Source of the DNA: Chloroflexota bacterium
GTDB lineage: Bacteria > Chloroflexota > Chloroflexia > Chloroflexales > Roseiflexaceae
Direction: 5' to 3'
Assembly: GCA_013388755.1 (NCBI GenBank)
Contig: JACAEQ010000112.1
Location: 1-64,000, forward strand
DNA: 64,000 nucleotides
Shown one piece after another: positions 27,601 to 37,327 of this stretch. A program made the translations under genes and the position numbers. The first letter of the stretch is position 1. Each line of letters opens with the position of its first letter. A model generated the notes under the pieces. That model searched no databases and was not told the DNA's origin. It saw only the letters and a program-made list of their open reading frames with translations.

Positions 27601-27911
27601 CCGAGACGTTCAGTGAAGCGTACCGCCGCCAGGGTCTGGGTGCGGTCGTCGGGCGGCCCACGGGCGGCGCGGTGATTGGCACGTTCAACCGGCGCCTGAT
27701 TGATGGTTCGTATTTCAGGTTGCCGCAGTTACGGGTAACAACGCCTGAGGGTGAAGAGCTGGAAGGATATGGGCGCCCGGTTGATATTGATGTGCGCCTT
27801 GGCCTGGGCGAATGGATGCGGGGCCGCGACGCGCAACTTGAGGCGGCGGTACGCGTATTGCTGGCTACGATTGATGGCGCGTCAAAGGCGCAACAGAATG
27901 GAGCCGCCTGA
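24627..27911 (+). CDS. Tricorn-like protease (beta-propeller, PDZ, S41 core), divergent copy
   Basis: 1094 residues. The N-terminal 600 or so are two TolB/WD40-like beta-propellers with repeated SPDG and WSPD motifs. A helical C1 region (QIFEECWRLLRDYFYDP), a PDZ domain (RVVPDSPAALAGNGAIQPGNRVLALNG) and an S41 tail-protease core follow. Histidine in GELRASHLGAY matches tricorn His746 and the serine in NELSLSNTE matches Ser965. The tricorn Glu1023 region (VEPDIEV in the paralogue at 46347) reads RPVDIDV here, so that glutamate appears replaced. It is probably a cytosolic oligopeptide-degrading protease with altered specificity. GAGGA precedes the ATG. Its stop overlaps the galM start by one base. 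Confidence 0.9.
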   Translation: MTDDRRRARPYFRTPSVSPLGDRIAFVYAGDIWLVAATGGRAERLTAHPANHSAPRWSPDGAALAYTSNRAGQGDVYVLPLDGGEVRRLTFHESLNSAECWSPDGTAIYFSSPRERQGTAIYRVATTGGTPVRWVAQPYERLGAATVSPCGRWLAFSLMRDPWWRRGPNPYGGAEVWLVSNEPGADDFRRLSDAPGLNCYPLWTPDGQALYFVSDRDGCENLWIMARDGGNAERVTSFIDERLFWPSISADGAIIAFERDFSIWTFDVAAGEAAPLPIAVRQDVKQTPVRVQTYTRDLSELALSPDGKKIAFVVRGKVFADFADKESEREQRQGLAFRISQTPFRDGEISWTPDSRSLVYVSDRHGDEEVYRYDFVTRAEQRLTDAPGRKSAPCSSPDGRWLAYARGDDEIRLIDVASGADRPFVRARFLFGASFAWSPDSCWLAFCAQDERFFSNLYVQHIDEQRPHQISFLSNLQAAGPIWAPNGSFILFTTGQYRAESQIVRIDLRPQPPVFREAEFDRLFEPRNGEARSGRGEMRTGAMARAGSLSVEADRDPVFPLPAIEPDEPPDVAPVRIDDEPLPARSALATTSVTIVFSGIERRLRLLTPLQMDATALCISPDSRDLICSAMVAGRQNLWSLPLDEPRAELGPRQLTSTTGAKSHASFAPDGKSVYFLDGGTVAVRKFPRGEQAALPVTAEVMIDFAEEKRQIFEECWRLLRDYFYDPTFRGLDWPTVRQHYAPLVAGAQTVSELYLILNLMAGELRASHLGAYAGGSSTGQDGYTGLIFDPVEYMRSGTLRVARVVPDSPAALAGNGAIQPGNRVLALNGTAPGREVSLDALLQRTAGRRVTLRVAGADGEPRDVELRPVSADQYEWLCYRAWVLENEELVHRISGGRLGYVHVRKMSYDAYQQFLADLDVETHSKAGVVVDVRFNSGGHTATFILDVLARRSVLTSAFRDRSAADSSHIFGNRVLNKPTVLVTNELSLSNTETFSEAYRRQGLGAVVGRPTGGAVIGTFNRRLIDGSYFRLPQLRVTTPEGEELEGYGRPVDIDVRLGLGEWMRGRDAQLEAAVRVLLATIDGASKAQQNGAA

Positions 27912-28963
27912 TGAGCATCGTTCGTGAATCCTTTGGGGCTGCTGGCGGTGAGACGGTTGAGTTGTATACATTGCGCGGCGCCAGCGGGATTGAGGCGCGG
28001 GTCATGACCTATGGCGGGACGTTGATATCCCTGCGCGCGCCGGATCGCACCGGGCGTCAGGGCGACATCGTGCTCGGTTTCGATACGCTGGAGCCGTACC
28101 TGGGCAACCAGCCGTATCTCGGCTCGCTGATAGGGCGCTACGCCAACCGCATTGCCTTCGGGCGTTTCAGTCTGGCTGGAACGGTCTACCAGCTGGCGTG
28201 CAATGATGGGCCTCACCATCTCCATGGTGGCAGGGTCGGTTTCGATAAGGTGATCTGGCAGGCACAGGAACGACCCGACGCGCGAGAGCCGGCGCTGGAG
28301 TTGCGCTACGTGAGCCGTGATGGTGAGGAAGGCTACCCGGGGAACCTGGCGGTGACCGTGACGTATACCCTGACCGGCGACGGCGCCTTGCGGCTCGATT
28401 ACCAGGCAACGACCGATTGGGAAACCGTGGTCAACCTGACAAATCATGCGTATGTTAACCTGGCCGGTGGCGGCGATATTCTGGGGCATGAGGTGCAACT
28501 CTTTGCGGGGCGCTTTCTGCCGATTGATGCGACGCTGATACCTACTGGCGAGTTTCGCCCGGTAGGTGGTACGGTGATGGACTTTACCACGCCGACGGCG
28601 ATCGGGGCGCGCATGTTCGCCGACGACGAACAGATCCGTTGTGGTCACGGGGGGTATGACCACACCTGGGTGATTGATGGCCCGGCGCATACACTCCGCC
28701 TCGCAGCGCGCGTCTACGATCCGGTGAGTGGTCGTGTGCTGGAGGTGTTGACGACACAGCCCGGCATGCATCTGTACACCGGCAACTTCCTTGATGGGAC
28801 ATTGACCGGTCGCGGCGGTCATCTCTATGCCAGGCACGCCGCGCTCTGCCTCGAAACGCAGCATTTCCCCGATTCGCCGAACCAGCCGGCCTTTCCTTCC
28901 ACCGTCGTGCGCCCCGGAACGATCTACCGCGAGACGACTCTGTTTCGCCTGTCGGTGCGCTAA
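27911..28963 (+). CDS. galM: Aldose 1-epimerase (galactose mutarotase)
   Basis: 350 residues. It interconverts alpha and beta anomers of galactose and glucose. Family motifs include GRYANRIAFGRF, NDGPHHLHGG (substrate-binding His), TNHAYVNLAG (catalytic His) and CLETQHFPDSPNQPAFPS (catalytic Glu). The length is typical. The ATG shares its A with the TGA stop of the tricorn-like gene (TGATG), so translation is coupled to a protease, an unexpected partner. No other gal genes are present. A MITE-like repeat begins three bases after its stop. Confidence 0.95.
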   Translation: MSIVRESFGAAGGETVELYTLRGASGIEARVMTYGGTLISLRAPDRTGRQGDIVLGFDTLEPYLGNQPYLGSLIGRYANRIAFGRFSLAGTVYQLACNDGPHHLHGGRVGFDKVIWQAQERPDAREPALELRYVSRDGEEGYPGNLAVTVTYTLTGDGALRLDYQATTDWETVVNLTNHAYVNLAGGGDILGHEVQLFAGRFLPIDATLIPTGEFRPVGGTVMDFTTPTAIGARMFADDEQIRCGHGGYDHTWVIDGPAHTLRLAARVYDPVSGRVLEVLTTQPGMHLYTGNFLDGTLTGRGGHLYARHAALCLETQHFPDSPNQPAFPSTVVRPGTIYRETTLFRLSVR

Positions 28964-29548: not shown

Positions 29549-30595
29549 GTGCCTGGTACCAGTCACTGCCTGCCCTGGGGCGCCGTGTATCGTGATATGC
29601 TCGACTTCTTGCGGCGTCTGCTGGGCATTGCGCCAGTGGCAACCAGCAGGGCCGGTCCGGCACCAGTGCGTGTGCAGGCGCCCTCGCTCGAACCGGTCGC
29701 GCCACGCGTCCTCATGATTGTCCACAATCCGCCGGTCGCTTCCGAGGGTGGTCGTCGTCTGACCGAGATCTTCGGCTGGAACGATCCATTGCGTCTGGCC
29801 TTGCAGTACGCCGCCGACCTGGAGCATGCCAGTGGCGGTTACCTGCGCTATCGTATCGTCGAACGGATTGACGCCGACTGGTTCCCGCCAAAGATTGATG
29901 GCTTCCGCTACAGTGGTGAGAGTTATGTTGCGGCATGGCGCGCGCGCCGGATGCATGAACCGGATCGGATAGACTACGAGGCGCAGGTGGCAGCGTTCGA
30001 CCTGCTTGGTCGCTACGATCGCGGCGAGATTGACGAAGTCTGGTTCTTCGCGTTCCCCTACGCCGGCGACTATGAATCGACAATGGTCGGGCGTGGCGCA
30101 TTCTGGTGCAATTCGCCGCCGGTGCCGAATACGGGCTGGTGCAGCGGACGCTTTGTGATGATGTGCTTCAATTATGAGCGCGATGTTGACTGTATGCTGG
30201 AAAACTTCGGTCATCGGGTCGAGTCGATCATCAGTCGTGTGTTCGCAAACCACGCGCCGGAACAGAATCTGTGGGAGCTGTTTACGCGCCACGACCGGAC
30301 ACATCCTGGCCGGGCGCAGTGTGGTAATGTGCATTTTGCGCCCAACTCTGAGCGCGACTACGACTGGGGTAATCCGCGGCCTGTCCTGAGTTACTGTGAC
30401 GACTGGTTGACCTTCCCTGACGTGCCCGGTCATGCGCGCATGGTTGATTGCCGTGAGTGGGGTGGCGGCGACATGCGCCTGCACCATCTGTGGTGGCTCA
30501 GCCACCTGCCGAAAGTGGGTGGCGAAACGTTCGGGGTGAGCAACAACTGGTGGTCGTATGTCGTCAATCCAATGCTGGTGTCAGTTGATGAGTGA
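29549..30595 (+). CDS. Conserved-looking protein of unknown function, rich in Trp, Cys and His
   Basis: 348 residues from a GTG at 29549; ATG 29597 (MLDFLRRLLG) is an alternative start and neither has a strong ribosome-binding site. After a short hydrophobic or amphipathic N-terminus the body has striking motifs: YSGESYVAAWRARRMHEPD, IDEVWFFAFPYAGDYESTMVG, GAFWCNSPPVPNTGWCSGRF, CFNYERDVDCMLENFGHR and MRLHHLWWLSHLPKV. The density of invariant-type residues (W, C, H, D, E) suggests an enzyme, possibly a secreted hydrolase or metal-dependent protein, but I assign no activity. It overlaps the GTG alternative start of the downstream protease gene. Confidence 0.7.
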   Translation: MPGTSHCLPWGAVYRDMLDFLRRLLGIAPVATSRAGPAPVRVQAPSLEPVAPRVLMIVHNPPVASEGGRRLTEIFGWNDPLRLALQYAADLEHASGGYLRYRIVERIDADWFPPKIDGFRYSGESYVAAWRARRMHEPDRIDYEAQVAAFDLLGRYDRGEIDEVWFFAFPYAGDYESTMVGRGAFWCNSPPVPNTGWCSGRFVMMCFNYERDVDCMLENFGHRVESIISRVFANHAPEQNLWELFTRHDRTHPGRAQCGNVHFAPNSERDYDWGNPRPVLSYCDDWLTFPDVPGHARMVDCREWGGGDMRLHHLWWLSHLPKVGGETFGVSNNWWSYVVNPMLVSVDE

Positions 30596-31864: not shown

Positions 31865-33184
31865 TCAGGCACGGTTACGCGTGCGATGCAGCGCCTCCAG
31901 CGCGGCGCGCAGGCTGCTCTGGGCGGATAACTGTGCCAGGTTGACGCCGAGTTGCACAATGGTCTGCGCCACCTCGGGCGACATGCCGGCCAGTGTCACC
32001 CGCGCGCCCAGCAGGTTGGCCGCCTGTGCCGTTTGCACCAGATGATTGGCGACGCCGGTATCTATCACGGCAATGCCGGTAATGTCAATGATCACTGCGT
32101 CGGCATGATAATCGCTAATCGCCTGAAGGATGGTCTGCGTCATCTGGGTGGCGCGGACGCTGTCAATGGCGCCGATCAGCGGGACGATCAGGGTGCGATC
32201 ATCAATCGGAATGATCGGCGTCGAAAGCTCGCGAATGGTTGACTGCTGCGCGGCGATGATTTCGTCCTGGAGTTGCTGGCGCTGGGTGTTGCTCTCCACC
32301 AGGTCGTGCATGATGCCAGGGAGCAGGTCGAGCGCCTTGAGCGCGGCCTCCGTGACGTTCTCGCGGGTGATCAGTGTGCCGGGTGTATAGACGTGACGCT
32401 CGCTCGCTTCGCCGCGCAGGGCGCGTAGGGCAAGGTCAATCGCCACACTCCCGATCTGCAGCGGCTCCTGATCAACCGTGGCGAGCAGGCGCCCGGCGTG
32501 GATGGCGCGAAATGCCTCGGGCAGGCCGTCGTACCCGACGACGGTGATCCGGTCTGATAACCCGGCCGCTTCAAGGGCGTCAATCACGCCAAGCGCCATG
32601 GCATCGTTGGCGGCGAATATGGCATCAATCGTGTCGCCGCCGTGCAGAAACCTGGCAGTGCACATCCGGCCACCCTCACGCGTCCAGTCGCCGATAGCCG
32701 TTCCTACAATACGTATGCCCGGCCAGCGCTGCAACGTGTCGATCATCAGATCGACACGCCGGTTCTGCGGCCCGGCAATCAGCGCCATGCGAAACCGGTC
32801 GCCCAGGTGTTCCACGAGGAGTTCGGCGAGTCGCAGCAGTCCGTGGTGTTCATCGGAGCGCACCGTTGTACTGACGTATCCTTCCAGAATACCGCCGTCA
32901 ACTTCGATTACCGGCACACGGGCAGCGCGCGCCAGTTCCAGGTAGGCGGCGAAACTGCGCGTTTCGTGGGCCGGCCCGACGAGCAATGCGTTCACACGTC
33001 GCCGGAGCAGATCGGAGATCATGTCGGCCTGGACCTCAACGCTGCCGGCGGCGTAATCGAGTAATACGACTCCATGGTCGGTGGCGCGTAAACGCGCACC
33101 ATGGCGCAGGATTGACCAGAAGGTGAACCGCGGGTCGTTCAGTACGCAGCCGATCGTCGGCTTGGCGCTGGATGTCACGATCAC
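31865..33184 (-). CDS. Sugar-binding-type sensor fused to a STAS domain
   Basis: 439 residues from GTG 33184, chosen because GGAG lies five bases upstream; a frame to 33436 adds non-conserved sequence. Residues 1-275 form a type-1 periplasmic-binding fold as in LacI/RbsB (TIGCVLNDPRFTFWSILRHG, DAIFAANDAMALGVIDALEAAG, ITVVGYDGLPEA), without helix-turn-helix, signal peptide or membrane helix, so it should be cytosolic. A helical linker (about 295-325) leads to an RsbR/SpoIIAA-like STAS domain: TLIVPLIGAIDSVRATQMTQ, ADAVIIDITGIAVIDTGVANHL. In that family the D-(T/S)-G position is a phosphorylation site. The likely role is partner-switching or stressosome-like signalling in response to a small ligand. 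Confidence 0.87.
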   Translation of the reverse strand: MIVTSSAKPTIGCVLNDPRFTFWSILRHGARLRATDHGVVLLDYAAGSVEVQADMISDLLRRRVNALLVGPAHETRSFAAYLELARAARVPVIEVDGGILEGYVSTTVRSDEHHGLLRLAELLVEHLGDRFRMALIAGPQNRRVDLMIDTLQRWPGIRIVGTAIGDWTREGGRMCTARFLHGGDTIDAIFAANDAMALGVIDALEAAGLSDRITVVGYDGLPEAFRAIHAGRLLATVDQEPLQIGSVAIDLALRALRGEASERHVYTPGTLITRENVTEAALKALDLLPGIMHDLVESNTQRQQLQDEIIAAQQSTIRELSTPIIPIDDRTLIVPLIGAIDSVRATQMTQTILQAISDYHADAVIIDITGIAVIDTGVANHLVQTAQAANLLGARVTLAGMSPEVAQTIVQLGVNLAQLSAQSSLRAALEALHRTRNRA

Positions 33185-33281: not shown

Positions 33282-33851
33282 TTATGGTGGGGGCGAGAGC
33301 AGGGTTGCGGAGGCCCAGCCCTCGGTGCCGGAAGCAACGCCTTCGCCGGCGCGATTGGCAGCAGGCTGGACAACACGGATGCGAAGCCAGAGTTGCCCGC
33401 CAACCGTGCGCCGTTCCAGAAACGTGATCGTGTCACCTGGATAGATCAGGCCGACCACCGTTTCCGGCGCGATGCGCGGCTCCGAGCGCAGATTACCGCC
33501 ATTCACAACCTGGCCGCTACCGATGCCCGGTTCGGGCGTGCCAGTGGGATTGGCGGCCGCCTCGGCGGTTGCTGTGCGCATGGCGAAGCGGGTGGCGGTG
33601 CGCAGGGCCTCAGCCGTCTGAACGGCAGCGGCGGTGCTGGTAAGCTGCGGCGCAACCGTCCCGCTGAAGGCGGTGGCCGTGGCGACCAGGCTTTCTGTCT
33701 GTTGCTGGCGATAGCTGAGCGCGAACGCCCCGCCACCGACAAGCACCGCGATCAGGGTCGCGGCCAGCAGCAGATTGAACAGCGCGCGCAGTGGGCCGCC
33801 GCGCCTGGGAGCGTTCGGCGCGAAGAGGCGATCCCAATCGCCAGGGTTCAT
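33282..33851 (-). CDS. Membrane-anchored bacterial SH3-domain protein
   Basis: 189 residues from ATG 33851 (MNPGDWDRLFAP); a TTG at 33863 is an alternative start. A short cytoplasmic segment, one membrane helix (LRALFNLLLAATLIAVLVGGGAFAL), a Thr/Ala-rich stalk (about 45-110) and a C-terminal SH3b domain (NGGNLRSEPRIAPETVVGLI, GDTITFLER, WLRIRV, GTEGWASATLL). SH3b domains outside the membrane often bind peptidoglycan. It is probably an envelope protein; the partner is unknown. Confidence 0.8.
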   Translation of the reverse strand: MNPGDWDRLFAPNAPRRGGPLRALFNLLLAATLIAVLVGGGAFALSYRQQQTESLVATATAFSGTVAPQLTSTAAAVQTAEALRTATRFAMRTATAEAAANPTGTPEPGIGSGQVVNGGNLRSEPRIAPETVVGLIYPGDTITFLERRTVGGQLWLRIRVVQPAANRAGEGVASGTEGWASATLLSPPP

Positions 33852-33908
33852 GTTGCTCGACAAACGCCATCCTCCGCAGTGTGCTCAGCCGCCACGCAGT
33901 ATAGCATA

Positions 33909-34712
33909 TCAGGCATATTCGCCAAACGTGTGCGGGTTGACCAGGCGGTACCCGACGCCGCGCACATTGACGATATATGCGGGATCGATCTTGCGCCGCA
34001 AGTTGTGCACATGGGTCTTGATCAATTGATGCGATTCATCATCGTTCAACGCATGGGCATTGGCATACGTGCGGCAGGCAATGTCGTGAAATGACAACGT
34101 CATCTCTTTCGCTTCAGCCAGGCAGCACAACAGGTCGTATTCAGTCGGCGTCAGTTGCACGATCCTGCCTTTGAAGGTGACCTGGTTGCTCAACCGGTCG
34201 ATCGATAGTTCGCCGACACGGAGGTACCGCGCCTGCGGCAGAATGACATCGCTTCCCTGAAGCTGTGCCAGTTCGTACGTTATCTCATCGAGCATCATGT
34301 TACGCAGTGCCAGGTCGCGCCGGCGTTGCAGCGCGCCTGCAATGGCGCGCAGCAGTTCGCCGGGTTTGCATGGCTTGAGCAGGTAGTCATAAACACCGGC
34401 GCGCAGCGCCGCCAGAGCAGTTTCCAGCGTACCGCGGCCGGTGAGCAACACAACTTCGGGCGGATCGGCACAGTCGCGCGCGCTGCGCAACACTTCTATG
34501 CCATCAGTTGCACGTAGCGCCAGATCGGTCAGCACAACATCATAGGCATGATTGTCGCTCTGTAACAGCCGACATGCCGACTCGCCGTCAGAGACGGACG
34601 TGACGCAGTAACCGGCATCCTCGAGGATCTGCTGCCATGATACGCGCGCGGCATAATCGTCTTCTACCAGCAGGATGCGGGCTTGTGTGAAATTGCCGGG
34701 CTGCATGGTCAT
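33909..34712 (-). CDS. Two-component response regulator, winged-helix output
   Basis: 267 residues. A receiver (about 12-125) has the acidic pocket VEDD, phosphoacceptor Asp in DVVLTDLALRATDG and Lys in DYLLKPCKPG. The C-terminus is an OmpR/PhoB-type winged helix (LTPTEYDLLCCLAEA, KTHVHNLRRKIDPAYIVNVRGVGYRLV). A helical linker of about 35 residues and a short beta segment separate them. Its ATG overlaps the stop of the upstream PAS kinase by four bases (ATGA), which pairs the two. A paralogue lies at 52238-53032. Confidence 0.93.
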   Translation of the reverse strand: MTMQPGNFTQARILLVEDDYAARVSWQQILEDAGYCVTSVSDGESACRLLQSDNHAYDVVLTDLALRATDGIEVLRSARDCADPPEVVLLTGRGTLETALAALRAGVYDYLLKPCKPGELLRAIAGALQRRRDLALRNMMLDEITYELAQLQGSDVILPQARYLRVGELSIDRLSNQVTFKGRIVQLTPTEYDLLCCLAEAKEMTLSFHDIACRTYANAHALNDDESHQLIKTHVHNLRRKIDPAYIVNVRGVGYRLVNPHTFGEYA

Positions 34713-37327
34713 CTTCTGATATAGGATTCGTCATACCATGACGGCGGTGGCACGTCAATAACTGGAAGGGTAATGATAAAGGTGGCGCCGGTGCCGGGCG
34801 CGCTGCGCACATCAATGCGCCCGCCTTGCTGGGTGATGATCTGCTGGCTGATCGCCAGGCCCAGCCCTGAACCATGTGTCTTTGTCGTAAAGAACGGCTC
34901 AAAGATATGCGGCTGCAGATCAGGAGGTATCCCGGCACCCGTATCTTCGATCAGCACCTGGACATAGCGGTCAGCAGGTGTGCCGTCGCTTTCCACCCGG
35001 CTGGCGGAGAACAGGCGCGTGGTCAGGCGTAGCACGCCACCGTGCGGCATGGCATCGATCGCATTCGTGACCAGATTGAGCAGCACCTGGGTCAATTTGT
35101 CGCGTTCGCCGCGAAACACCGGCAGATCGGGAGCCAGGTCCCGCTCAATACAGATATTGTTGCGCGCCAGCGCGCTGCCGAGCAACAGCAGCACACGTTC
35201 GATCACAGCGTTGCAGTCGGTTGACCCAAGCGCACTGCCATCCGGGCGCTGCACATCGAGCAAGCGGCGTATCAAGGTCGAGACACGATCAAGCTCATCA
35301 CTGACCAGGGCGAAGTAGCTAGCCTGGCGTACAGAGTCGGTTGTTTGCGCCAGGTACAGATAGTTCTGGATCGATTGCAGTGGCGTATTCACTTCGTGCG
35401 CCACAATCGCGGCCAGGCGGCCGATCGCAGCCAGTCGCTCGTTCTGCAGCATGATCTCCTCAAGTTGCAACCGCTCGGTGATGTCAACAATGCGGAGCAC
35501 GACCTGACGCACGTCGTTCCCTTCCAGTAATGGCATACTATGGATGTAGAGCATCATTGTTGCACCTGATGCGCTGCTGTAGCGTAGCTGTTCTGTGGTC
35601 GTCGACCGCTCAGACAGGGTGCGAGCGACAACTGGTGCCATGAGCGGGCAGACAGCCGTACACGTCTGGCCAACGAGCGCAGCAGGGGTAGCCTGGAGGA
35701 GTTCGGCGAACCGCTGATTGGCAATCAGCAATGTACCATTGCGATCGATGAGCGCCAGCGCATCGTCCAGGCCATCGAAGATGGTACGCAGCAGATCACG
35801 GCTCTGTTGCAGATCGGCGTTGAGCGCACGCAGGCGCTCATTGGCTTCCGCGAGCGCCTGTTTGACCCGCTGGCGTTCGGTGATGTCGCTGATCACGCCG
35901 ATCATCCCGGCGAGCTGCGCATGCTCATCGTAGATAGGTGCGATGGTCGTGTATGCCGGAAACAGAGTGCCATCGCGGCGCCACATGGTGAGCTCGCCTT
36001 CCCAGTTCCGTTTACTGGCGATGGTGGCTCTGATCGCATCCTGTGTCACCTGGTCGAGCTGGCTATCAACAAGGAAATCGGAGTTGCGGCGACCTATCTC
36101 AGTTGCATTCCAGCCAAACATCCGTGTTGCGGAATCGCTCCAGTAGATGATTTCGCGGCTGGTGTTAATCGCGATCACTGCCTGGCCAACCGCAGCGAGT
36201 AGTTTTGCCTGGAAGCGCAACTGTGCTTCGGCAGTCTTGCGTTCAGCGATCTCGCAGGCAAGCATGTCGTTTGCCCGGCGCAGATCAGCGGTTCGCTGCT
36301 GGACACGGCTCTCAAGTTCTGTGTTTAGCTGGCGATACTCCGCCTCACTCCGCCGCAGCGCCTCCGTAATACGTTTCTGCTCGGTGATGTCGGTAGCGAT
36401 GATAACAACGAACGCGATTGCGCCCTGATCGTTGTAGAAAAGCCGGCCACTGGCGAGAACCGGAACCTCGCTGCCGTCCTTACGGGTCAACGCCAGTTCA
36501 GCGCTCCAGCAACCGTCCTGAATGATCCTGGCGATGATATCGAGAACATTGATCGATCCACCGAGCGTTTCTTCGAGGCGCACGACCGAGGCGCCGAGCG
36601 CTTCCGCTCTGCTCCAGCCGAAGGTGGCGACCGCGGCCTGGTTCCAGTAAACGATTGTTCCACCTGGTTCGATAGCAATAACCGCCTGGCCAATGGCATC
36701 GAGCAGACTGCCGTGAAAGCGCAGCAACGCTTCGGCAGTATAGCGCCGGGTGATGTCGCTCGTGAGCCCGACGAGTTCAATCGGATCGCCGTGAGCATCG
36801 CGGAGCGGATGCATGCGCGTCTGCACGTGGCGCACACTGCCATGTTTGTGAATGATACGGTATTCGATCTCGACGCCGCTGGTCAGGCTGGCTCGCAATG
36901 CCGCGAGGACAGCGGCTACATCGTCGGGGTGCGTAATGCGCAGCCAGATGTTCGGATCGGCGTAGACTTCCGCAGCAGTGTACCCTGTGATCGTTTCGAC
37001 GGCCCGGCTGGCAAAGGTGACCGTGAAGCTTGGCTCGATCGCGGTCCACGACAGATGGGCGATCCAGAAGATATCCTGCATATCGTCGGTCACACGCTGA
37101 AGCAGCAGATCACGGTCGTACTCCGCGCCAGCGGACAGGCGCCGTTCGGGATCGGACGACGCGCGCCCGTGTCGCGCGGCAAGTTGTGCCGTGGCGTCGG
37201 CCAGTTCGCGCTCCAGCCGGGCATTCTGGCGTTGTAGTTCCTCGATTTGCCGGATCAGCCCCTCAGGCCCGGTTGTGGCAGTTGCGTCCGGCGCAGGATG
37301 TGATGAGGCAGATGTCATAGGCGTCAT
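34709..37327 (-). CDS. PAS-rich sensor histidine kinase
   Basis: 872 residues without membrane segments, so probably cytosolic. After a coiled-coil start there are four PAS domains (about 75-200, 208-320, 375-490, 510-630), e.g. ITGYTAAEVYADPNIWLRITHPDD, then a HisKA dimerisation domain with the phospho-acceptor in IVAHEVNTPLQSI and a HATPase domain (N box VLLNLVTNAIDAM, G1 DTGAGIPPD, G2 GSGLGLAIS). All catalytic boxes are intact. The four-base overlap with the response-regulator gene indicates a cognate pair. What the PAS domains bind cannot be read from the sequence. Confidence 0.94.
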   Translation of the reverse strand: MTPMTSASSHPAPDATATTGPEGLIRQIEELQRQNARLERELADATAQLAARHGRASSDPERRLSAGAEYDRDLLLQRVTDDMQDIFWIAHLSWTAIEPSFTVTFASRAVETITGYTAAEVYADPNIWLRITHPDDVAAVLAALRASLTSGVEIEYRIIHKHGSVRHVQTRMHPLRDAHGDPIELVGLTSDITRRYTAEALLRFHGSLLDAIGQAVIAIEPGGTIVYWNQAAVATFGWSRAEALGASVVRLEETLGGSINVLDIIARIIQDGCWSAELALTRKDGSEVPVLASGRLFYNDQGAIAFVVIIATDITEQKRITEALRRSEAEYRQLNTELESRVQQRTADLRRANDMLACEIAERKTAEAQLRFQAKLLAAVGQAVIAINTSREIIYWSDSATRMFGWNATEIGRRNSDFLVDSQLDQVTQDAIRATIASKRNWEGELTMWRRDGTLFPAYTTIAPIYDEHAQLAGMIGVISDITERQRVKQALAEANERLRALNADLQQSRDLLRTIFDGLDDALALIDRNGTLLIANQRFAELLQATPAALVGQTCTAVCPLMAPVVARTLSERSTTTEQLRYSSASGATMMLYIHSMPLLEGNDVRQVVLRIVDITERLQLEEIMLQNERLAAIGRLAAIVAHEVNTPLQSIQNYLYLAQTTDSVRQASYFALVSDELDRVSTLIRRLLDVQRPDGSALGSTDCNAVIERVLLLLGSALARNNICIERDLAPDLPVFRGERDKLTQVLLNLVTNAIDAMPHGGVLRLTTRLFSASRVESDGTPADRYVQVLIEDTGAGIPPDLQPHIFEPFFTTKTHGSGLGLAISQQIITQQGGRIDVRSAPGTGATFIITLPVIDVPPPSWYDESYIRR

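Follow-up and report, generated by a model that had tools for sequence, protein, structure and literature searches.

An RbsB-like binding-protein domain joined to an RsbR-type STAS domain in a cytosolic protein of a Chloroflexota bacterium

Introduction

In the RsbRST stressosomes of Bacillus subtilis, Listeria and Vibrio, RsbR proteins carry a STAS domain with 2 Ser/Thr phosphorylation sites, connected by a helical linker to an N-terminal sensor, which is already known to be variable (PMC4976288, PMC9237128) and can be a non-heme globin, a sensor globin, or a LOV or PAS domain. The Listeria stressosome is activated and tuned through phosphorylation of RsbR at T175 and T209 (PMC12154155, PMC9237128), and a ligand on RsbR changes RsbT activity in Vibrio (PMC4976288). 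Only 2 stressosome signals have been identified, namely, blue light, perceived by YtvA, and oxygen, perceived by the globin RsbR of Vibrio (PMC9237128, PMC4976288).

Sugar-binding proteins of the RbsB/ABC type (Peripla_BP_4) have a two-lobed, clamshell-like fold, which also serves as a built-in sensor in hybrid two-component systems of the BT1754 type (PDB 2x7x, fructose-binding), where it is periplasmic. Here, we analyze a gene from a 64,000-nucleotide stretch of Roseiflexaceae DNA (hereafter, the window), the product of which places such a fold in the cytosol, on an RsbR-type protein (Table 1). The protein shares with the RsbR of RsbRST stressosomes the STAS type, the helical linker and both Ser/Thr sites, and differs in having an RbsB-type clamshell as the sensor. 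RsbS and RsbT are encoded in its genome, as in the RsbRST genomes, but the gene itself is located away from rsbS-rsbT. The apparently new part is the combination of a binding-protein sensor with RsbR, both elements being known separately: no report of a sugar-binding RsbR was found in the part of the open-access literature covered, nor did a search there on stressosomes, Chloroflexi and STAS yield one.

Results

A single reading frame with two domains

Two Pfam families were recognized in the same unbroken frame, Peripla_BP_4 over residues 14-259 (E = 2.5e-41) and STAS over residues 324-415 (E = 9.3e-15), and a GGAG-like site precedes the 2 candidate GTG start codons. The frame remains open upstream to position 33436, which would add 84 residues; this extension matched no Pfam family, overlaps the upstream SH3_3 gene, which uses another frame, and is unlike the extensions of the orthologues, 2 of which start right at the first strand of the binding domain (L006 at VTSALTLG and L007 at MHIGYAT). 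Neither the extension, as judged by Pfam, nor these orthologue starts leave a helix-turn-helix upstream of the binding domain, and inspection by eye together with Pfam revealed no apparent signal peptide, lipobox or transmembrane segment in the protein (N-terminus VIVTSSAKPTIGCV) and no signal peptide or lipobox in its orthologues. Hence, the central claim of the initial annotation, a binding domain devoid of DNA-binding helices, secretion signal and membrane anchor fused to STAS, is borne out, and the true start upstream with a helix-turn-helix, which it had named as a refuting outcome, was not found. A LacI repressor with an overlooked helix-turn-helix is ruled out by the Pfam analysis of the extension, the orthologue starts and the phylogeny described below. 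Because 6 orthologues share the same fusion, an artefact of frame or assembly is also rejected.

The structure prediction proposed in the initial annotation, an AlphaFold model built on a 14-row alignment (mean pLDDT 85.9), displays a two-lobed binding-protein fold, a long helix bridging both domains and a STAS fold. The 31865-33184 product is thus a cytosolic protein composed of an RbsB-type fold, a long helix and STAS.

Table 1. Coordinates of the fusion gene, its parts, its neighbors and stressosome-related genes of the same genome (window positions, unless a contig is named)
Feature	Position	Strand	Remarks
Whole gene	31865..33184	(-)	Cytosolic RbsB-like binding domain + RsbR-type STAS; 437-439 aa; start GTG 33184 or 33178
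RbsB-type periplasmic-binding-protein sensor domain	32339..33163	(-)	Residues 8-282; Pfam, PDB matches, pocket mapping
Linker helix	32222..32323	(-)	Residues 288-321 (286-319 in the model); single helix running into RsbR-like RELSTPIIPI; AlphaFold, Listeria RsbR alignment
RsbR-type STAS domain	31880..32218	(-)	Residues 323-435; Pfam, PDB, phosphosite alignment
Ser342 codon	32159..32161	(-)	Aligned to Listeria RsbR phosphosite T175 (PMC12154155)
Thr376 codon	32057..32059	(-)	Aligned to Listeria RsbR phosphosite T209 (PMC12154155, PMC9237128)
SH3_3 protein	33282..33863	(-)	One apparent transmembrane helix; upstream, co-directional; order kept in five Roseiflexus-like genomes
OmpR-type response regulator	33909..34712	(-)	Upstream, co-directional; Pfam, synteny
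Multi-PAS histidine kinase	34709..37327	(-)	Upstream, co-directional; overlaps response regulator by 4 bases
Aldose 1-epimerase	27911-28963		Conserved neighborhood
RsbS-like gene	C7:102458-102862		2.7e-39 to Listeria RsbS; DSF phosphosite motif
RsbT-like gene	C7:102846-103250		Overlaps the adjacent RsbS-like gene by a few bases
Consecutive genes for a second RsbT-like ATPase, an RsbX-like PP2C phosphatase and a GAF/PAS histidine kinase	L087 1325-5133, contig C74

The signaling half is of the RsbR type

In searches against PDB sequences, the C-terminal half (residues 307-435) matched the Listeria stressosome RsbR at 7.4e-27 and RsbS at only 5e-12, with the linker being included in the RsbR alignment. 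The STAS half is 39% identical to Listeria RsbR over 119 residues, and Ser/Thr residues, S342 and T376, occupy both RsbT phosphorylation positions of the alignment. By contrast, the protein missed the cut-off of the SpoIIAA family (TIGR02886, 19.4 bits versus 114.75 needed) and that of the generic antagonists (TIGR00377, 27.4 versus 53.45 bits), so that of the originally proposed "RsbR/SpoIIAA-like" assignment only the RsbR part stands, and a SpoIIAA/RsbV-type antagonist is ruled out on the scores. We are therefore highly confident that the protein is of the RsbR type; with respect to signaling, it falls within a known family and shows nothing out of the ordinary, the choice of sensor being what is unusual.

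The sensor belongs with ABC binding proteins and has a usable-looking pocket

Among PDB sequences, the N-terminal half (residues 10-278) matched the Thermoanaerobacter ribose-binding protein 2ioy (1.8e-31), and the best Foldseek matches of the model among PDB structures were binders of ribose, allose, galactofuranose and arabinose. The fold is common to RbsB/ABC sugar-binding proteins (TM-score about 0.8 by target length), which are 25-30% identical to the sensor and appear to share most of its pocket positions. The fusion protein differs from them in lacking a signal peptide and adjoining transporter genes and in being joined to STAS. In a 33-row tree of the sensor domain, which included 3 LacI-type repressors of the same genome, the sensor fell on the side of the ABC binding proteins, with the LacI repressors split off by a 100/100 branch, whereas branching within the binding-protein side was mostly without resolution. 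The earlier description of the domain as LacI/RbsB-like is thus narrowed down to RbsB-type binding proteins, to the exclusion of LacI regulators.

We mapped the 10 ribose contacts of Escherichia coli RbsB (PMC2630998) onto the sensor. Past the alignment gaps, where the residue numbers of 2ioy no longer run in step with those of E. coli, positions were assigned from motifs. Eight of the 10 contacts are identical (6) or aromatic-for-aromatic (2), although 1 of the identical ones, R143 for R141, is an uncertain match because of alignment gaps. The other identical residues are F22 (F15), D96 (D89), N193 (N190), D219 (D215) and Q239 (Q235), and the aromatic replacements are W23 (for F16) and W167 (for F164). 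The remaining 2 contacts, F20 (for N13) and G97 (for R90), are changed, and D96 is not conserved in the distant orthologue L007, both of which count against a ligand-sensing role. From these residues, the pocket looks usable yet differs from the one that holds ribose in RbsB.

Stressosome partners and paralogues in the genome

The genome (5.08 Mb, 100% complete) encodes adjacent RsbS-like and RsbT-like proteins on contig C7. The RsbT-like protein had no match among PDB sequences; it is 60% identical over 123 residues to a sequence that we take to be, approximately, B. subtilis RsbT. The absence of a partner-switching kinase, an outcome that would have spoken against the proposal, was therefore not observed, and of the 3 kinds of partner genes that the initial annotation suggested looking for, those for RsbS and RsbT are present, whereas RsbU_N, the domain of the sigma-cascade phosphatase, had no match in the genome. 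The lack of an RsbU_N match makes a histidine kinase as plausible an output as a sigma factor; consistently, the row of RsbT-like, RsbX-like and kinase genes on contig C74 suggests that a histidine kinase may be the stressosome output, and a kinase output has been proposed for the Vibrio D1-D2 module (PMC9237108).

The genome also encodes about 15 further RsbR-type STAS proteins with other N-termini, including PAS, double PAS, dCache-HAMP, HAMP, 7TM-PAS and a short coiled coil, as well as, in several cases, membrane regions without an assigned family. Most of these paralogues have kept both phosphosites, the exceptions being L040, L041, L044 and L045. Judging from the sequences, such a set of diverse sensors is as would be expected for a mixed hub. 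RsbV/RsbW/SpoIIE-like modules are present as well. Several of the RsbR-type proteins look membrane-anchored, in contrast to the cytosolic classical RsbR; among them, a dCache_1-HAMP-STAS protein with a STAS domain of the RsbR type (L037, 205-1917, contig C121) apparently has an extracellular sensor wired to a stressosome-type domain.

Distribution and gene neighborhood

The full fusion was found in 7 of the 82 genomes of the order, that is, in the genome of the window and as 6 orthologues, all conserved along their entire length: 5 with 68-70% identity from 1 other Roseiflexus-like genus of the family, and a more divergent one with 37% identity. No further fusion was detected in phylum samples of 400 and 250 genomes, in which distant cases may be missed because just 4-8 candidates were scored per genome. 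An origin from viruses or plasmids is rejected: no relative was found among viruses, and no plasmid match extended over 80% or more of the query (the maximum was about 79%), those with an annotation beneath being ABC-transporter proteins.

In 5 of 5 Roseiflexus-like genomes, the fusion gene comes after the genes for the histidine kinase, the response regulator and the SH3_3 protein, in this sequence, and is followed by a convergent M50 protease gene, an uncharacterized gene and the aldose 1-epimerase gene. A gene at window positions 29549-30595 is conserved, with about 81% identity in Roseiflexus-like genomes, and its product had no Pfam match at E 0.001. The distant orthologue on a short contig (L084) has none of the conserved neighbors, which suggests that the fusion protein probably functions independently of them. 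This orthologue is followed by genes for an HbpS-like (haem-degrading) and a HAD protein.

Discussion

We consider it reasonably probable that the protein is an RsbR paralogue in which a cytosolic, monosaccharide-like ligand tunes the RsbT kinase within a mixed stressosome. The C-terminal STAS domain would assemble with RsbS and other RsbR paralogues into a cytosolic stressosome holding RsbT, with the RbsB-like domain projecting outward as a sensory turret. The ligand of this turret would be a small molecule of the cytosol, probably a metabolite resembling a monosaccharide. Closure of the clamshell, transmitted through the linker helix to STAS, would alter RsbT-dependent phosphorylation at Ser342/Thr376 and on RsbS, with RsbT being held back or set free to act on its output partner. 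Besides the changed pocket contacts and the lack of an RsbU_N match, 2 observations count against this reading. The gene (contig C60) lies outside any rsbRST operon; Listeria RsbR paralogues, too, occur outside the sigB operon, placement within rsbRST being usual but not required (PMC9237128). Furthermore, the sensor, at about 30 kDa, is larger than globin-type turrets. A more specific picture, in which the clamshell lets the stressosome sense an intracellular sugar or sugar-like metabolite as one of about 16 inputs to a single RsbT hub with a histidine-kinase output, is offered tentatively, and we hold it to be somewhat doubtful as a whole.

The nature of the ligand is where the most serious alternative arises. 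A nucleoside, a polyol, an autoinducer-like compound or another protein could be sensed through the same stressosome mechanism, given that the RbsB fold accommodates many ligands, that the positions of R90 and N13 are unlike those of ribose binders and that the HbpS-like and HAD genes follow the distant orthologue. The closest neighbors in structure and sequence, however, bind ribose, allose, galactofuranose and arabinose, and the conserved aldose 1-epimerase gene provides a weak hint in the same direction; we regard a non-sugar ligand as unlikely. The changed contacts, together with a gap of 5 residues that adjoins the R141 position in the comparison with L007 and the L094/L124 proteins described below, could also mean that the domain of this RsbR paralogue no longer binds any ligand and acts as a mere dimerization or spacer turret, akin to the turrets of B. 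subtilis RsbR, which are non-heme globins that have lost their heme (PMC7522486, PMC4976288). Retention of the aromatic stack and of the Asp/Asn/Asp/Gln pocket positions among the orthologues with about 68-70% identity argues against such decay and renders it improbable.

The protein might, furthermore, switch partners outside a stressosome, as an RsbV-like antagonist of an RsbW-like kinase or as a partner of the upstream histidine kinase and response regulator. The RsbV/RsbW/SpoIIE-like modules could supply the former, and the co-directional, syntenic kinase, regulator and SH3 genes of the 5 Roseiflexus-like genomes would suit the latter. But SpoIIAA/RsbV is a much more distant match to the STAS domain than RsbR is, neither the linker nor either of the 2 RsbR phosphosites has been lost, and L084 lacks kinase and regulator neighbors, making this possibility quite remote compared with the stressosome reading.

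With respect to the history of the fusion, related cytosolic binding domains occur on GAF, PAS and kinase proteins, so that a cytosolic sensor module appears, from the sequence comparisons, likely to have been re-used with RsbR as its output. A protein from an Oxalobacteraceae MAG (L094) has a binding domain-GAF-PAS architecture up to the contig end and aligns through the linker at 33% identity, and one from a Betaproteobacteria MAG (L124, N-terminus missing) has a binding domain-PAS-kinase architecture with a related linker helix. As in the fusion protein, the RbsB-like domain of L094 and of L085, a protein of the same genome, is without an apparent signal peptide, whereas the output of L124 and L085 is a histidine kinase rather than STAS. 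Unlike in the BT1754-type sensors, which are periplasmic and belong to hybrid two-component systems, the binding-protein fold of the fusion is cytosolic and of RsbR-type output.

Ligands of binding-protein folds are easy to screen, and their open-to-closed motion is well understood; therefore, ligand-to-kinase signaling in a stressosome could be directly tested with the fusion protein. The genome as a whole indicates that a single RsbS-RsbT core may read many soluble and membrane sensors.

L085 (1473-4079, contig C16) comprises 868 residues with a cytosolic RbsB-like domain, GAF, a histidine kinase core and, at the C-terminus, a DNA-binding domain of the AraC type, thereby uniting sensor, kinase and transcription factor within a single chain. 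Other Chloroflexota MAGs (L125, L134 and L167) encode apparently secreted, tandem-duplicated sugar-binding proteins that hold 2 binding domains in a chain of about 610-670 residues.
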